Assembly: GCF_030149515.1 (NCBI RefSeq)
Contig: NZ_JASBRI010000001.1
Span: forward strand, 62,001-126,000
Source of the DNA: Maricaulis sp.
Lineage (GTDB): Bacteria; Pseudomonadota; Alphaproteobacteria; Caulobacterales; Maricaulaceae
Direction: 5' to 3'
Length of the DNA stretch: 64,000 nt
Each line of letters starts with the position of its first letter. Position 1 is the stretch's first letter. The translations under genes and the position numbers were made by a program. Below, piece after piece: positions 23,082 to 27,195 of this stretch. The notes under the pieces were generated by a model. That model ran no database searches. It was not told the origin of the DNA and saw only the letters and a list, made by a program, of their open reading frames with translations.

Positions 23082-23275
23082 GACGCCCCCTGTTTGCTCC
23101 AGACTTATCATCAAGCCCCGACCCGGAACAAGTCGTGAACGCAATGCGCCCTTGCAATGCGAATGAGCCGCAGAAACACATGAGACTGAATGTCAGACGC
23201 AAGTATACTGAGAAGCAGTTTCAATAAACCTTCTAACACATTGAATACCGTCGCTATTATTATTCCTGGTATTGT

Positions 23276-23410: not shown

Positions 23411-23920
23411 ATGGCGAAGAAGGGGAAGCTGAGCCGGCGCTCATTCCTGACGCGGGTGGCCGGAACGGCTGTCGCGACAGGCGCGGCGTCCGTGGTCACC
23501 GGGACCGCTCAGGCACAGAATTATACCGGCCACACCGATAGCGACACCGGCAACTATGCCGACCGCGCAGGCTATGGCCGTACGGGTGTAACCGACAGCG
23601 ATGGCGGCGCCAATGCCGACCGTGCGGGCTATGGCCGCGGCGGCGGCAGTAGCGGTGTCACCGACAGCGATACAGGCGCCTATGCAGACCCGGCCGGTAA
23701 TGGCCGCGGCGGACGCACCAGCGGTATCACCGACAGCGACACGGGCAGCTATGCAGACCCGGCCGGCAATGGCCGCGGCAGCTCAAGCTATACCGACAGT
23801 GACAGCGGCAGTTGCGCCGATCCGGGCGGACGCGGGCGCGGGCCCGTGCGCAGCGGAACGACCGACAGTGATACCGGCGGGTGTTCCGACCCGGCCGGCC
23901 GTGGCCGTCCCGGCTACTGA
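23411..23920 (+). CDS. Tat-exported TDSDTGxYADPxGxGRG repeat protein A
   Basis: A 169-residue protein. Residues 1-35 are a twin-arginine signal (MAKKGKLSRRSFLTRVAG, then a hydrophobic Ala/Thr/Val stretch) with a signal-peptidase I site AQA-Q near residue 35. The rest is six imperfect units with consensus [VIYT]TDSDTGxYADPAGxGRG joined by Gly/Ser linkers. In the last two units Tyr is replaced by Cys (GSCADPGG, GGCSDPAG). I do not recognise a family. The acidic DSD spacing resembles calcium-binding loops, but this is only a resemblance. The ATG follows GGGAGC; the track's earlier start is rejected because the Tat signal must be N-terminal. A paralogue follows after 22 bases and a JmjC oxygenase gene follows that. 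Confidence 0.85.
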   Translation: MAKKGKLSRRSFLTRVAGTAVATGAASVVTGTAQAQNYTGHTDSDTGNYADRAGYGRTGVTDSDGGANADRAGYGRGGGSSGVTDSDTGAYADPAGNGRGGRTSGITDSDTGSYADPAGNGRGSSSYTDSDSGSCADPGGRGRGPVRSGTTDSDTGGCSDPAGRGRPGY

Positions 23921-24549
23921 TCCGGCGGCAAAGGACTGAACCATGGCAAAGCGCGGAAAGCTCTCCCGCCGCTCCTTCCTGACCCGGGTCGCCGGCGCGG
24001 CCCTGACCACCGGGGCCGCGGGCACCGTGACCGGATGCGCCTCGACGGGCTATACCGACAGCGATCCCTATGATCCGGTCGGCGGCGGACGGGGCGGTTA
24101 CAATACCGGTATCACCGACAGCGATTCAGGCCGCTATGCCGACCCGCCCGGCAATGGGCGCGGCGGCGGCATCACCGACCGCGATACCGGACAGTATGCC
24201 GACCCGGTGGGACGGGGCCGCGGCGGCGGCGTTACCGACAGCGATACCGGCACCTATGCCGATCCGCCAGGGCGCGGGCGCGGCAGTTCGGGCATCACCG
24301 ACAACGATACGGGCAGCTATGCAGACCCCGTCGGCCGCGGGCGCGGCGGCGGCTATCGCTCCGGCATCACCGACAATGACAGCGGCCGCTACGCCGATCC
24401 GGTCGGCAATGGACGCGGCGGCAATCGCGGCGGCGGCATCACCGACAGCGATCCCTACGATCCCGTCGGCGGTGGCCGTGGCGGGCGCCGGGGCAACTGT
24501 ACCGACAGCGATACCGGCAGCTATGCCGACCCCGCCGGCAATGGCCGTC
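23536..24549 (+). repeat. Degenerate coding repeats, about 14 units in two genes
   Basis: Units of roughly 50-75 bases, each containing a version of ACCGACAGCGATACCGGC then TATGCCGACCC and GGCCGCGGC, recur six times in repeat protein A and eight times in B. Two units in B are short (TDSDPYDPVGGGRGG). The frame is kept throughout, and variation is concentrated at third positions and in the Gly-rich linkers, as expected for protein repeats rather than DNA repeats. Confidence 0.8.
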
Positions 24550-24557
24550 ATTGCTAG
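23943..24557 (+). CDS. Tat-exported TDSDTGxYADPxGxGRG repeat protein B, probable lipoprotein
   Basis: A 204-residue paralogue of protein A; the first 18 residues (MAKRGKLSRRSFLTRVAG) differ at one position. Unlike A, the signal ends in VTGC near residue 32, a good lipobox, so B is probably a Tat lipoprotein while A is released. Eight repeat units follow, with more Pro-Pro/Pro-Val variants (YADPPGNGRG, YADPVGRGRG) and two short TDSDPYDPVGGGRGG units, at the first and seventh positions. A Cys pair brackets the last unit (NCTDSD...GRHC). AAGGA lies upstream of the ATG. It arose by duplication of A or the reverse. Function unknown; likely forms an operon with A and perhaps the oxygenase downstream. 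Confidence 0.85.
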   Translation: MAKRGKLSRRSFLTRVAGAALTTGAAGTVTGCASTGYTDSDPYDPVGGGRGGYNTGITDSDSGRYADPPGNGRGGGITDRDTGQYADPVGRGRGGGVTDSDTGTYADPPGRGRGSSGITDNDTGSYADPVGRGRGGGYRSGITDNDSGRYADPVGNGRGGNRGGGITDSDPYDPVGGGRGGRRGNCTDSDTGSYADPAGNGRHC

Positions 24558-24572
24558 ACGCCGATGACATGC

Positions 24573-24607
24573 GGCCGGGCCTTGTGACACCGGTCGCAGG
24601 TCCGGCC
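24573..24607 (+). terminator. Hairpin between repeat protein B and the oxygenase gene (possible attenuator)
   Basis: GGCCGGGCC (24573-24581) pairs with GGTCCGGCC (24599-24607), eight Watson-Crick pairs and one G-U, around a 17-base loop. Only CTTTCCC follows, so termination would be partial. It could set a ratio between abundant repeat proteins and less abundant enzyme. Confidence 0.35.
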
Positions 24608-24690
24608 CTTTCCCGTCAACACCGGGACAATTTTTCCGCGCCGCCGCCGCATGCGGGCGCCTGCGGACACCAAATCTGGGACCTGCCCGA

Positions 24691-25878
24691 ATGACCGATC
24701 CGCTCTGGCTGACCGATCCGATCCGCTGTCTTCTCGATCCGGTCGATGCCGGCACATTCTTTCGCGACTATCACGAACAGACCGCGCTGGTGGCGCACCG
24801 CGACGATCCGGAGCGCTACGGCGACCTCCTGTCGATCCAGCGCATTGACGAGATCGTGACCAGCCTGGACCTGCGCGCCGGCCAGCTGGACATGGCGCGA
24901 TCCGATCCGCCAGTCCGGCAGGAGGATTTCATTTTCGAGACCGGTCACATCGACCGGGGCGGCGTGGCGGAACAATACCGGCAGGGCGCCACCATCATCC
25001 TGCCCCAGCTGCACATGTCGGATCCCGTACTCGGCGAGTTCTGCCGCGCCATGGAGGCGCTGTTCTCCTGCCAGGTGCAGACGAATATCTACCTCACACC
25101 GCCGCACAATCAGGGCTTTCGCACCCATTACGACGACCACGACGTGTTCGTCATGCAGGTGTCCGGCGAAAAGTACTGGCGCCTTTACGACACGCCGGTG
25201 GAAAATCCCTATCGCGGGGAAGGCTTCAAGCCGGAAGACCACAAAGTCGGCGACCCGGTGGAGGAATTCGTGCTCAAGGCCGGGGAATGCGCCTATGTTC
25301 CCCGCGGGCTGATGCACGATGCCTCGACACGCGGCGAGGAACCCTCGCTCCACATCACGCTTGGCCTGATCGTGAAGACCTGGGCCGACCTGATGCTCGA
25401 GGCCGTGTCGGAGGTGGCGCTGCGTCATTCAGCCTTCCGGCGCTCGCTGCCACCGGGCTTTGCCAGTCCCGATTTCGACCGCAGCGGCGCCCGGGCCTAT
25501 TTCAAATCCCTGATCGAAGCGCTCGCACGGGATGCGGATCTCGATTCGTCGATGGACCTGTTCGCCGACACTTTCATCCGCTCGCGCATGCCCGATACGC
25601 GTGGCACGATCACGGGCTATGCGGACCCGGCCGCACAGGGCGCACGATTCACCCTCCGCCGCTTCGTACCCTGGCGCCTGGCAGGCGACGGAGACGATAT
25701 CGTGCTGGTGACGGCGGGCGGTGAGGTCCGCTTTCCTGCAGCCGCCGAGCCGGGTCTGCACGTCCTGCTCGACGGCGAAACCATCTCCCTGGAGACTTTC
25801 AAGGAGATGGACGAAGGCGCGGCGCGTGACACGCTGGGCCGGCTGCACGCCTTCGGGCTGATCGTTCCGGCCAGCTGA
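24691..25878 (+). CDS. JmjC/cupin-4 2-oxoglutarate-dependent oxygenase (RoxA/YcfD-like)
   Basis: A 395-residue protein of the cupin-4/JmjC class, whose known members (E. coli YcfD/RoxA, human MINA53/NO66) hydroxylate Arg or His in ribosomal proteins using Fe(II) and 2-oxoglutarate. Iron ligands are visible as the HxD of GFRTHYDDHDVFVMQVSGEKYW (H146, D148) and the distal His of VPRGLMHDAST (H209). TILPQLHMSDPVL and TNIYLTPPHNQG are the usual preceding strands; the C-terminal part is a winged-helix-like region. It starts 133 bases after two repeat-protein genes on the same strand, so those proteins, rather than ribosomal protein, could be its substrate; this is inference. No strong ribosome-binding site is seen. 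Confidence 0.85.
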   Translation: MTDPLWLTDPIRCLLDPVDAGTFFRDYHEQTALVAHRDDPERYGDLLSIQRIDEIVTSLDLRAGQLDMARSDPPVRQEDFIFETGHIDRGGVAEQYRQGATIILPQLHMSDPVLGEFCRAMEALFSCQVQTNIYLTPPHNQGFRTHYDDHDVFVMQVSGEKYWRLYDTPVENPYRGEGFKPEDHKVGDPVEEFVLKAGECAYVPRGLMHDASTRGEEPSLHITLGLIVKTWADLMLEAVSEVALRHSAFRRSLPPGFASPDFDRSGARAYFKSLIEALARDADLDSSMDLFADTFIRSRMPDTRGTITGYADPAAQGARFTLRRFVPWRLAGDGDDIVLVTAGGEVRFPAAAEPGLHVLLDGETISLETFKEMDEGAARDTLGRLHAFGLIVPAS

Positions 25879-26025
25879 GCGCCGGCATGGTTACCGCCTG
25901 GTTATAATTCAGTACCCGGCGGACCCTTGCGGTTTGTATAGACAAAAGACTACATGCGCCTCGCGTCGGCGGTCCGGACGTTCCGGGCCGCGATTTCTTT
26001 TGCACGAACAGATTTGCGAAACGGT

Positions 26026-27195
26026 ATGCGCGTGAGAACGATCACCATTGCACTGGGATTCGTCGCCATCTTCGGCGCCCTCTGGGTCATGTGGCCGGCG
26101 CCGGTCAGCCCCGCCTACTGGGACGAGCCGGAGCCGCCGGCCATGACGGGCCCGCTGGCACCGGACGCGGCCCTGCGCGAAGCGGCCCTCTATCCGGCCG
26201 GGCCGGCCGGCACCGCCGAGGGAATTGCCACCGGCGAGGACGGAACGGTCTATTTCGGCACGCCGGACGGGCGCATCCAGCGCCTGGCCGCCGGCGCACC
26301 GGACGGCGCGCCGATGCTGGAGGATGTCGCGCAGATCACCGACACGCGGATACTCGGGCTCGACTGGGTCCGGCCGGGGGTGCTGGGCATCGCCGCCGTC
26401 TCCGGACTGTACACTCTCGATCTGGATACCGGGCACCACCGTCTCGTCAGTACAGGCGTGCCGGCCCATTCCTACGGCTACATCAACGATCTCGCAGCGG
26501 CACCTGACGGAACGATCTATTTCACCGATTCCTCGACGCGCTGGGGTCATTCCGCGAACAATCCGGGCTATATCTACGATCTGCTGGAGAACAGGCCGAG
26601 CGGGGCCATCTATGCCTGGGACCCCGAACTGCATCAGTCCCGCCTCGTTCGGGACCGGCTATACTATCCCAACGGAATGGAGTTGGCGTCAGACGGCCGG
26701 TCACTCTTCATTGCCGAGTCGTTCCGGTATCGCATTCTCAGGCTCTGGATCGATGGTCCCAATGCCGGCAATATCGACATCCTCGCCGACAACCTGCCCG
26801 GCCTGCCCGACGGCATCGACTCCGACGGCCAGGGCCGCCTGTTCGTCGCAATGTCCACACGCCGCATCCCGCTGATGCGGACGCTGCACCGCAATCCGCC
26901 GCTTGCGCGGCTGATCGCCAAACTTCCCGGCTGGATGCGACCGTCCGGCGGACCTGCTCAGGGTTTCGTGCTCGTCATGGACGAGGCAACCGGTGCCCCG
27001 CTCGACACCCTGCACGACCCTGACGGTCGGCTATGCCTGCTCTCCAACGTGGATATTACGGCGGGCGGGTCGATCTGGCTCGGCTCAACCGATTGCGGCG
27101 TTATCGGTCGCCTCGCCCTGCCCGACCTGCCGGCCCCGTCCGGACAGCAGCCGGATACGGGACCGTCCGCCCCGCTCCTGTCGGAACATCGCTAA
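26026..27195 (+). CDS. SMP-30/strictosidine-synthase-like beta-propeller, membrane anchored
   Basis: A 389-residue protein with an N-terminal signal anchor (TITIALGFVAIFGALWVMW) and a six-bladed propeller of the strictosidine synthase/adipocyte membrane-associated protein type: GTAEGIATGEDGTVYFGTPDGRIQRL, GYINDLAAAPDGTIYFTDSSTRW, LYYPNGMELASDGRSLFIAESFRYRILRLW and LPGLPDGIDSDGQGRLFVAM. Members are lactonases or related hydrolases with a metal in the central channel; the substrate is unknown. The track start is 24 codons earlier; 26026 puts the anchor at the N-terminus. It lies 147 bases after the oxygenase gene on the same strand and converges on tkt. Confidence 0.82.
   Translation: MRVRTITIALGFVAIFGALWVMWPAPVSPAYWDEPEPPAMTGPLAPDAALREAALYPAGPAGTAEGIATGEDGTVYFGTPDGRIQRLAAGAPDGAPMLEDVAQITDTRILGLDWVRPGVLGIAAVSGLYTLDLDTGHHRLVSTGVPAHSYGYINDLAAAPDGTIYFTDSSTRWGHSANNPGYIYDLLENRPSGAIYAWDPELHQSRLVRDRLYYPNGMELASDGRSLFIAESFRYRILRLWIDGPNAGNIDILADNLPGLPDGIDSDGQGRLFVAMSTRRIPLMRTLHRNPPLARLIAKLPGWMRPSGGPAQGFVLVMDEATGAPLDTLHDPDGRLCLLSNVDITAGGSIWLGSTDCGVIGRLALPDLPAPSGQQPDTGPSAPLLSEHR

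Follow-up and report, generated by a model that had tools for sequence, protein, structure and literature searches.

A JmjC oxygenase gene linked to genes for Tat-signal aspartate-repeat proteins in proteobacteria, with predicted iron control

In a 64,000-nucleotide stretch of a Maricaulis sp. genome, referred to here as the window, we found a locus that we read, with a slight leaning and jointly with the whole iron and hydroxylation model set out below, as a conserved two-part cassette consisting of one to four Tat-exported Asp-repeat proteins and a dedicated JmjC oxygenase. The cassette is found in many water and marine bacteria. No description of such a pair of JmjC and Tat-repeat genes was found in the open-access literature searched, most subscription papers lying outside the search. 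If the enzyme modifies the repeats, as the sequences suggest, the product would be a secreted protein, possibly metal binding, of a kind not yet described.

Results

The preliminary description had placed two tandem Tat-signal repeat genes, with 6 and 8 units, and a JmjC gene at positions 23411 to 25878, and all three are present there on the forward strand. The first gene (23411 to 23920) encodes repeat protein A of 169 amino acids, which starts with a putative Tat signal peptide (23411 to 23515; SRRSFL; MAKKGKLSRRSFLTRVAG...AQA, the end being of the signal peptidase I type) and continues with six TDSDxGxYADxxGxGRG units (repeat region at 23534 to 23917). The signal was recognized from its sequence and from weak, sub-cutoff matches to TIGR01409 and TIGR02811 in NCBIfam, where the matches of the repeat proteins were confined to the Tat signal. 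An ortholog of the gene for A sits upstream of the JmjC gene in Maricaulaceae. The second gene (23943 to 24557) encodes repeat protein B of 204 amino acids, with eight units (repeat region at 24054 to 24554). B is a predicted Tat lipoprotein because it has a lipobox (TVTG-C32) whose cysteine (codon at 24036 to 24038), overlooked in the preliminary description, is near-invariant among its close relatives. A [RK]R[SD]F Tat signal was seen in 65 of the 71 nearest repeat genes, with starts chosen automatically, and by this twin-arginine motif the repeat proteins are predicted to be Tat substrates and to be exported.

The repeats are more than a chance pattern, since their genes are under purifying selection (dN/dS of about 0 to 0.15 in three species pairs) and three positions of the unit are 98 to 99% Asp among 440 alphaproteobacterial units, which were collected by a search anchored on other residues to avoid the circularity of Asp-forced patterns. 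The mature alphaproteobacterial sequences contain 1,981 Asp residues versus 36 Glu, and His makes up only 0.5% of the alphaproteobacterial and 0.6% of the gammaproteobacterial repeat sequence. The gammaproteobacterial dialects and one alphaproteobacterial dialect keep an Asp core, D-x-x-D-x-x-G, and have mostly lost Arg; Pro and Tyr are also largely absent from the gammaproteobacterial ones. Cysteines, where they flank a unit, do so on both sides in 35 of 36 cases, so that pairs bracket single units, and the last unit of B is bracketed in this way. AlphaFold2 gave no confident fold for B (mean pLDDT of 36).

The third gene (24691 to 25878) encodes a JmjC_2 (PF08007) Fe(II)/2-oxoglutarate oxygenase of 395 amino acids, scoring 94.7 bits against a cutoff of 22; all 16 aligned relatives also match this family. 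It consists of a JmjC domain, a helical domain, and a C-terminal winged helix, and its AlphaFold2 model is confident (pLDDT of 93.9). The intact HxD...H motif noticed earlier held up across 66 relatives, in which the metal ligands H146 and D148 (25126 to 25134) and the distal ligand H209 (25315 to 25317) are invariant, as is K161 (25171 to 25173), which aligns with the corresponding Lys of NO66 and which we take from family knowledge to bind 2-oxoglutarate. With these Fe/2-oxoglutarate residues in place, catalysis on a protein substrate is predicted. The best fold match of the model in the PDB is NO66 (TM score of 0.77, 23% identity). Phylogenetic analysis places the repeat-linked enzymes in a monophyletic clade (support of 95/88) apart from Escherichia coli RoxA, human NO66, and 17 unlinked JmjC proteins, and the grouping with ribosomal L16 hydroxylases that would have spoken against a dedicated enzyme was not seen. 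The winged helix (25648 to 25875), delimited from the secondary structure of the AlphaFold2 model, is a possible RRE-like substrate-recognition module; RRE-like folds are fused to some eukaryotic PF08007 proteins, and RiPP-like contexts have been noted for bacterial PF08007 homologs (PMC12710340). The sequence GYADPAAQGAR near the C terminus of the enzyme was considered as a mimic of the repeat and dropped, as it is not conserved in relatives.

Oxygenase and repeats occur together almost without exception. In a set of 249 genomes from the order, repeat genes occur in 46, each of which carries a member of the JmjC clade, and the clade occurs in 48, each with repeats beside the JmjC gene; in the class sample, 10 of 10 repeat-positive genomes carry the oxygenase. 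Repeat genes usually found without the enzyme, the outcome named beforehand as damaging, were thus not observed. Over 249 and 289 genomes the co-occurrence is near-perfect, and within several genera the two are jointly present or absent. We surveyed the neighborhoods of the nearest 80 of 349 oxygenase relatives. A Tat repeat gene lies directly upstream on the same strand in 71 of these 80, with a median gap of 50 nt, in both Alpha- and Gammaproteobacteria, and the pair stays adjacent in differing genomic contexts. None of the 17 unlinked JmjC proteins is encoded next to a Tat repeat gene. Three relatives (L072 and L090, and G427 at the class level) have the JmjC gene without a repeat gene in the sequence covered, which counts against the model.

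When the genes lying up to 6 kb from 60 loci were clustered, no wider conserved operon emerged: nothing but the pair is shared across lineages, and ruvCAB and dnaJ/dnaK were set aside as lineage-local synteny. No TonB receptor or transporter accompanies the cassette, which also counts against the model. Repeat genes distant from a JmjC gene have no common partner among their neighbors. No oxygenase relatives were found on viral contigs, and no repeat protein on plasmids.

The promoter region of the operon contains three imperfect Fur-type 7-1-7 palindromes (23158 to 23223, forward strand), namely, TGCGAATGAGCCGCA at 23158, TGAGACTGAATGTCA at 23181, and TGAGAAGCAGTTTCA at 23209, with scores of 19.5, 19, and 19 of 23, respectively. 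The best score was reached by none of 200 shuffles. The window box by itself is weak, with 2 mismatches, and the equivalent sites in relatives are much stronger. Boxes scoring at least 19 precede 42 of 57 operons, compared with 14 of 793 control promoters. The weights of the scan were fixed after the Maricaulaceae promoters had been seen, so the remaining lineages were tested apart: boxes were found at 16 of 26 operons versus 1 of 362 controls in the held-out other alphaproteobacterial lineages and at 10 of 10 operons versus 5 of 114 controls in the held-out Gammaproteobacteria. The same motif lies upstream of genes for TonB receptors, solute-binding proteins, a Bfd-type ferredoxin, and rubrerythrin, and one complete genome has three exact Fur-type sites in all, one of them at the cassette operon. 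Additional repeat genes at other genomic sites mostly have no Fur-type box, which, like the imperfect boxes of the window, counts against the model. Judged from these sites, the operon is very likely under iron/Fur control and apparently expressed when iron is short. A further point against the model is that induction at low iron is odd for an Fe-dependent enzyme, except if the enzyme is produced first or binds Fe with high affinity.

Discussion

We consider it likely that the oxygenase modifies the repeats and, with less assurance, favor Asp as the modified site. Asp, Asn, Arg, and Pro had been proposed as targets at the outset; Asp emerges as the best candidate because it is kept throughout, while the gammaproteobacterial dialects retain little Arg, Pro, or Tyr and one alphaproteobacterial dialect lacks Arg. 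The nearest solved relatives of the oxygenase hydroxylate His or Arg and not Asp, which counts against this choice.

The whole model, which we slightly favor, runs from iron starvation through beta-hydroxylation of repeat Asp residues by the JmjC enzyme and Tat export to a metal-binding protein of the envelope. When iron is scarce, Fur would release the operon and the genes would be expressed. In the cytoplasm, the enzyme, with Fe(II), O2, and 2-oxoglutarate, would hydroxylate the beta-carbon of conserved Asp residues in each repeat, while its C-terminal winged helix is the probable docking site of the precursor, perhaps via the conserved signal region. The evidence is compatible with the proposal in the preliminary description that every repeat is modified ahead of Tat export. 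The modified chain would then leave through the Tat system, A as a free protein in the periplasm or outside and B as a lipoprotein. Each unit may form a loop whose two ends lie near each other, as the bracketing Cys pairs suggest, and each loop may bind a metal, most likely Fe(III), via beta-hydroxy-Asp. Beta-hydroxyaspartate is a component of iron-binding siderophores, e.g., cupriachelins (PMC10484230). We give about even chances to metal binding as the purpose of the repeat proteins, and only tentatively suggest a gene-encoded polymeric siderophore-like protein, Fur-induced and with beta-hydroxy-Asp loops each binding ferric iron at the envelope.

The repeats could instead be structural modules that bind calcium or a surface, with hydroxylation of Asp serving to adjust Ca2+ binding or adhesion and not the handling of iron. 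The spacing D-x-D-x-G-x-x-x-D is akin to that of Ca2+ loops, and the Cys-bracketed units resemble small loop modules. However, neither A nor B matched any Pfam family at an E value of ≤1, including known Ca2+-binding or other repeat families, and the Fur-type boxes indicate iron, which makes this explanation unlikely. Hydroxylation of the conserved Arg of GxGRG in the manner of RoxA, with Asp merely part of a recognition motif, would agree with the GxGR found in most alphaproteobacterial units and with the action of RoxA-type JmjC enzymes on Arg in Gly-rich contexts, as known for the family. We regard it as improbable because the gammaproteobacterial dialects are Arg poor: partners of the same enzyme clade include units without Arg, such as TDSSDQSGGE in Gammaproteobacteria and GSDYDPNDPIGGG in an alphaproteobacterial dialect, and the enzyme is far nearer to NO66 than to RoxA in profile comparison (E values of 2e-45 versus 1e-4).

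The repeat proteins might also be RiPP precursors that are modified and then cleaved to small released peptides, such as signals or antibiotics. A precursor gene adjoining a dedicated modifying enzyme, as expected of RiPPs, is what we see here, and the variable copy number, the paralogs, the winged-helix C terminus, and the RiPP-like contexts of bacterial homologs mentioned above point the same way. Against this, no gene for a protease, a transporter, or immunity accompanies the pair across lineages (proteases and transporters are not strictly required of the class), B is a predicted lipoprotein, and the repeat genes show purifying selection and not arms-race change; we doubt that release of peptides is the function. 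That the JmjC protein is a ribosomal-protein hydroxylase with an incidental repeat neighbor is very improbable, for although it shares the domain architecture of NO66, MINA, and RoxA, its clade is separate, the co-occurrence is close to perfect, with joint presence or absence inside several genera, and the adjacency persists in differing genomic contexts.

With this pair, the JmjC oxygenase family gains a concrete gene-linked candidate substrate across a large set of proteobacterial genomes, and carriers of the cassette include cultured strains of Maricaulis, Brevundimonas, Hyphobacterium, and Woodsholea. If the model of Asp hydroxylation before export is true, it would represent a new modification route for exported proteins, with cytoplasmic hydroxylation preceding export by Tat, and possibly a protein-based counterpart of siderophores; NO66/MINA-like enzymes would then serve a different purpose in bacteria.

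Among known systems, the closest solved structures are NO66 and MINA53 (RIOX1/2), ribosomal histidyl hydroxylases (described as ribosomal oxygenases in animals) that share the fold of JmjC, helical, and winged-helix domains, the HxD...H motif, and the Lys; the cassette enzyme differs in being bacterial, in forming its own clade, and in having as its partner a Tat-exported repeat protein that is almost His free. The L16 arginyl hydroxylase RoxA/YcfD shares superfamily and architecture but is very distant in sequence and not repeat linked, while the partners in the cassette are partly without Arg. FIH, an Asn/Asp/His hydroxylase of ankyrin repeats, is likewise a JmjC enzyme acting on many sites in repeat proteins, but as a structural match it is distant, ranking 43rd or lower, and it has cytosolic substrates and no genetic linkage to them. 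BipG, the JmjC ornithine hydroxylase of biphenomycin biosynthesis, also acts in a RiPP pathway, but this is a multienzyme antibiotic cluster with a single peptide, and the source text consulted mentions neither Tat repeats nor Fur boxes (PMC12707348). Bufferins, RiPP metallophores modified by MNIO enzymes, resemble the cassette in their small exported ribosomal product, the iron enzyme in the operon, and the theme of metal stress (PMC12452194), but they rely on an MNIO (DUF692), a Sec signal, a Cys core, and copper, whereas the cassette combines a JmjC enzyme, a Tat signal (SRRSFL), Asp repeats, and Fur-type boxes pointing to iron.

Gene cassette

As the preliminary description had it, three consecutive genes on the plus strand of the window (23411-25878) encode two repeat proteins, A of 169 aa with 6 units and B of 204 aa with 8 units, followed by a 395-aa oxygenase of the JmjC_2 type (PF08007). 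The oxygenase is 79% identical to that of the nearest named relatives, and the source of the window is a Maricaulis-like alphaproteobacterium. Both A and B start with MAK[KR]GKLSRRSFLTRVAG, by its sequence a textbook twin-arginine signal, which in A is closed by AQA. B carries a lipobox cysteine (TVTG-C32), near-invariant among its close relatives and not remarked on earlier, and is thus predicted to be a Tat lipoprotein. Neither protein matched a Pfam family. An SMP-30/strictosidine synthase-like protein is encoded directly 3' of the JmjC gene (25954-27195, plus strand); elsewhere it lies near JmjC in several Maricaulaceae only.

Linkage of repeat genes and oxygenase

We scanned relatives, using one genome per species, and examined the neighborhoods of the best 80 of 349. 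An immediately upstream, same-strand repeat gene was present in 71 of the 80 (median gap, 50 nt). Among the others, the repeat gene was recognized by eye or differently placed at three loci (L068, L105, and L095), was partial at a contig edge in L108, and was not found in the flanking DNA examined of L072 and L090; L069, L075, and L112 end at a contig end. In a survey of 61 relatives, the oxygenase occurred in all sampled congeners and patchily outside them, with repeat genes adjoining every close orthologue that had upstream DNA to inspect.

Co-occurrence, proposed earlier as a check, held at both taxonomic levels. The linked JmjC clade was present in 48 of 249 genomes of the order, and all 46 genomes scoring positive for repeat genes were among them; the remaining 2 showed repeat genes on inspection. 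For the class (289 genomes), all 10 repeat-positive genomes were among the 12 JmjC-positive ones; the other two were G042, which does have repeats, and G427, with none in the DNA inspected. Within several genera of these surveys the two genes are present or absent jointly. Some genomes have extra repeat genes distant from JmjC, all confined to JmjC-bearing genomes. None of 17 JmjC proteins outside the clade has a Tat repeat neighbor.

The oxygenase

In a tree of 66 clade members, these 17 unlinked proteins, human NO66, and RoxA of E. coli, a supported branch (95/88; recovered in 97% of bootstrap trees) separated the clade from the rest, including the ribosomal-type RoxA with which comparison had been suggested; several outgroup branches were long. 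The HxD...H iron ligands, described before as intact, are invariant (H146, D148, and H209), as is K161, in 66/66 members. AlphaFold2 modeled the enzyme with high confidence (pLDDT, 93.9) as JmjC, helical, and winged-helix domains. The top PDB matches of this model are NO66, which falls outside the clade in the tree, and MINA53, followed by YcfD and B. subtilis YxbC. A 55-aa peptide encoded beside one unlinked JmjC protein (L194:4083-4250, minus strand) has what may be a double-Gly leader (ELVSGGFGDGRAS...) and could be a RiPP precursor.

Repeat units

The alphaproteobacterial units are long (TDSD[ST]GxYADPxGxGRG) or short (TDSDPxDxxGxGR). In 440 long units, found with anchors leaving out Asp, positions 2, 4, and 10 are Asp in 98.9, 98.4, and 99.3%, with Glu once and Asn never. 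Asp outnumbers Glu by 1981:36 in the alphaproteobacterial mature sequences, from which Lys is almost missing. In Gammaproteobacteria, most partners of this enzyme clade are Tat proteins whose units read TDSSDQSGGE or SDSDSSDQSGR; one dialect from Alphaproteobacteria has GSDYDPNDPIGGG. Common to these dialects is D-x-x-D-x-x-G, to which the long unit adds a three-residue insertion; this makes Asp the likeliest candidate hydroxylation site. A dN/dS of about 0 to 0.15 shows strong purifying selection on the repeat genes.

Cysteines stand on both sides in 35 of the 36 units with flanking Cys, a count that overstates independent events because many units share descent, and 63 of 64 Cys-containing repeat proteins have an even number. 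This pairing suggests that both ends of a unit adjoin, forming a loop. For the repeat protein modeled without modification or metal, AlphaFold2 did not yield a confident fold (pLDDT, 36).

Further repeat sequences were a third dialect behind an SRRTF Tat signal adjoining a second JmjC in genome G534 (GSDYDPNDPIGGGSDTDPVDPIGEG; L258:2724-2996, minus strand), a different repeat protein neighboring a TDSD repeat gene remote from JmjC (VVESFADIDVEVVTSFPDLNVKVVESFADD; L188:7285-7569, minus strand), and, in the sphingomonad locus L105, a Cys/Pro-rich dialect (CSDTDSGSSADPGGRGRRC) that lies on the opposite (minus) strand, 1.2-1.8 kb 3' of the JmjC match end.

Probable iron control

A 7-1-7 Fur-type palindrome common to Maricaulaceae precedes the first repeat gene. 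We compared 57 nonredundant operon promoters with 793 other promoters from the same loci. Scores of ≥19 (maximum, 23) were reached by 42/57 versus 14/793, and scores of ≥21 by 22/57 versus 2/793; at ≥20, the Fisher P value was 1.6e-29. Since the scan weights were fixed after viewing Maricaulaceae, other lineages were tested separately, giving 16/26 versus 1/362 in other Alphaproteobacteria and 10/10 versus 5/114 in Gammaproteobacteria. The boxes in the window itself are imperfect and unconvincing on their own. The complete genome G025 has only three exact sites, one of them at this operon, where three boxes stand in tandem, and a second 5' of rubrerythrin. Further near-exact sites, spread over three genomes, lie 5' of genes for TonB receptors, a Bfd-like ferredoxin, and solute-binding proteins; Pfam places these last in solute-binding families, and we read them from their sequences as iron-ABC type. 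Given this company, the operon palindrome is very probably the local Fur box. In L229 and L232, from two genera, a TonB receptor gene and a DUF6607-type gene (Pfam check in L229 only) diverge from a shared Fur-type box, and DUF6607 may be an iron-regulated family.

Proposed mechanism and relation to known systems

The analysis establishes the gene pair, its signals, the intact enzyme residues, selection on the repeat genes, conservation of the motif, and the Fur-like boxes. Beyond these, we propose that JmjC would beta-hydroxylate Asp of the repeats in the cytoplasm and that Tat would export the repeat proteins, which would sit in the envelope and bind metal. Tat export suits a protein finished, perhaps metal-loaded, before leaving the cytoplasm. 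Iron-binding siderophores such as cupriachelins contain beta-hydroxyaspartate (PMC10484230), which would connect an Asp-hydroxylating enzyme with Fur control. The literature searched contained no description of a system with JmjC and Tat-exported Asp repeats under Fur. The nearest published hint found is a 2025 RiPP-recognition-element study, which reports that in fish and algae PF08007 is fused to RRE-like folds and that bacterial homologues occur in RiPP-like contexts (PMC12710340). The oxygenase comes from a known superfamily, and the logic of the cassette is RiPP-like.
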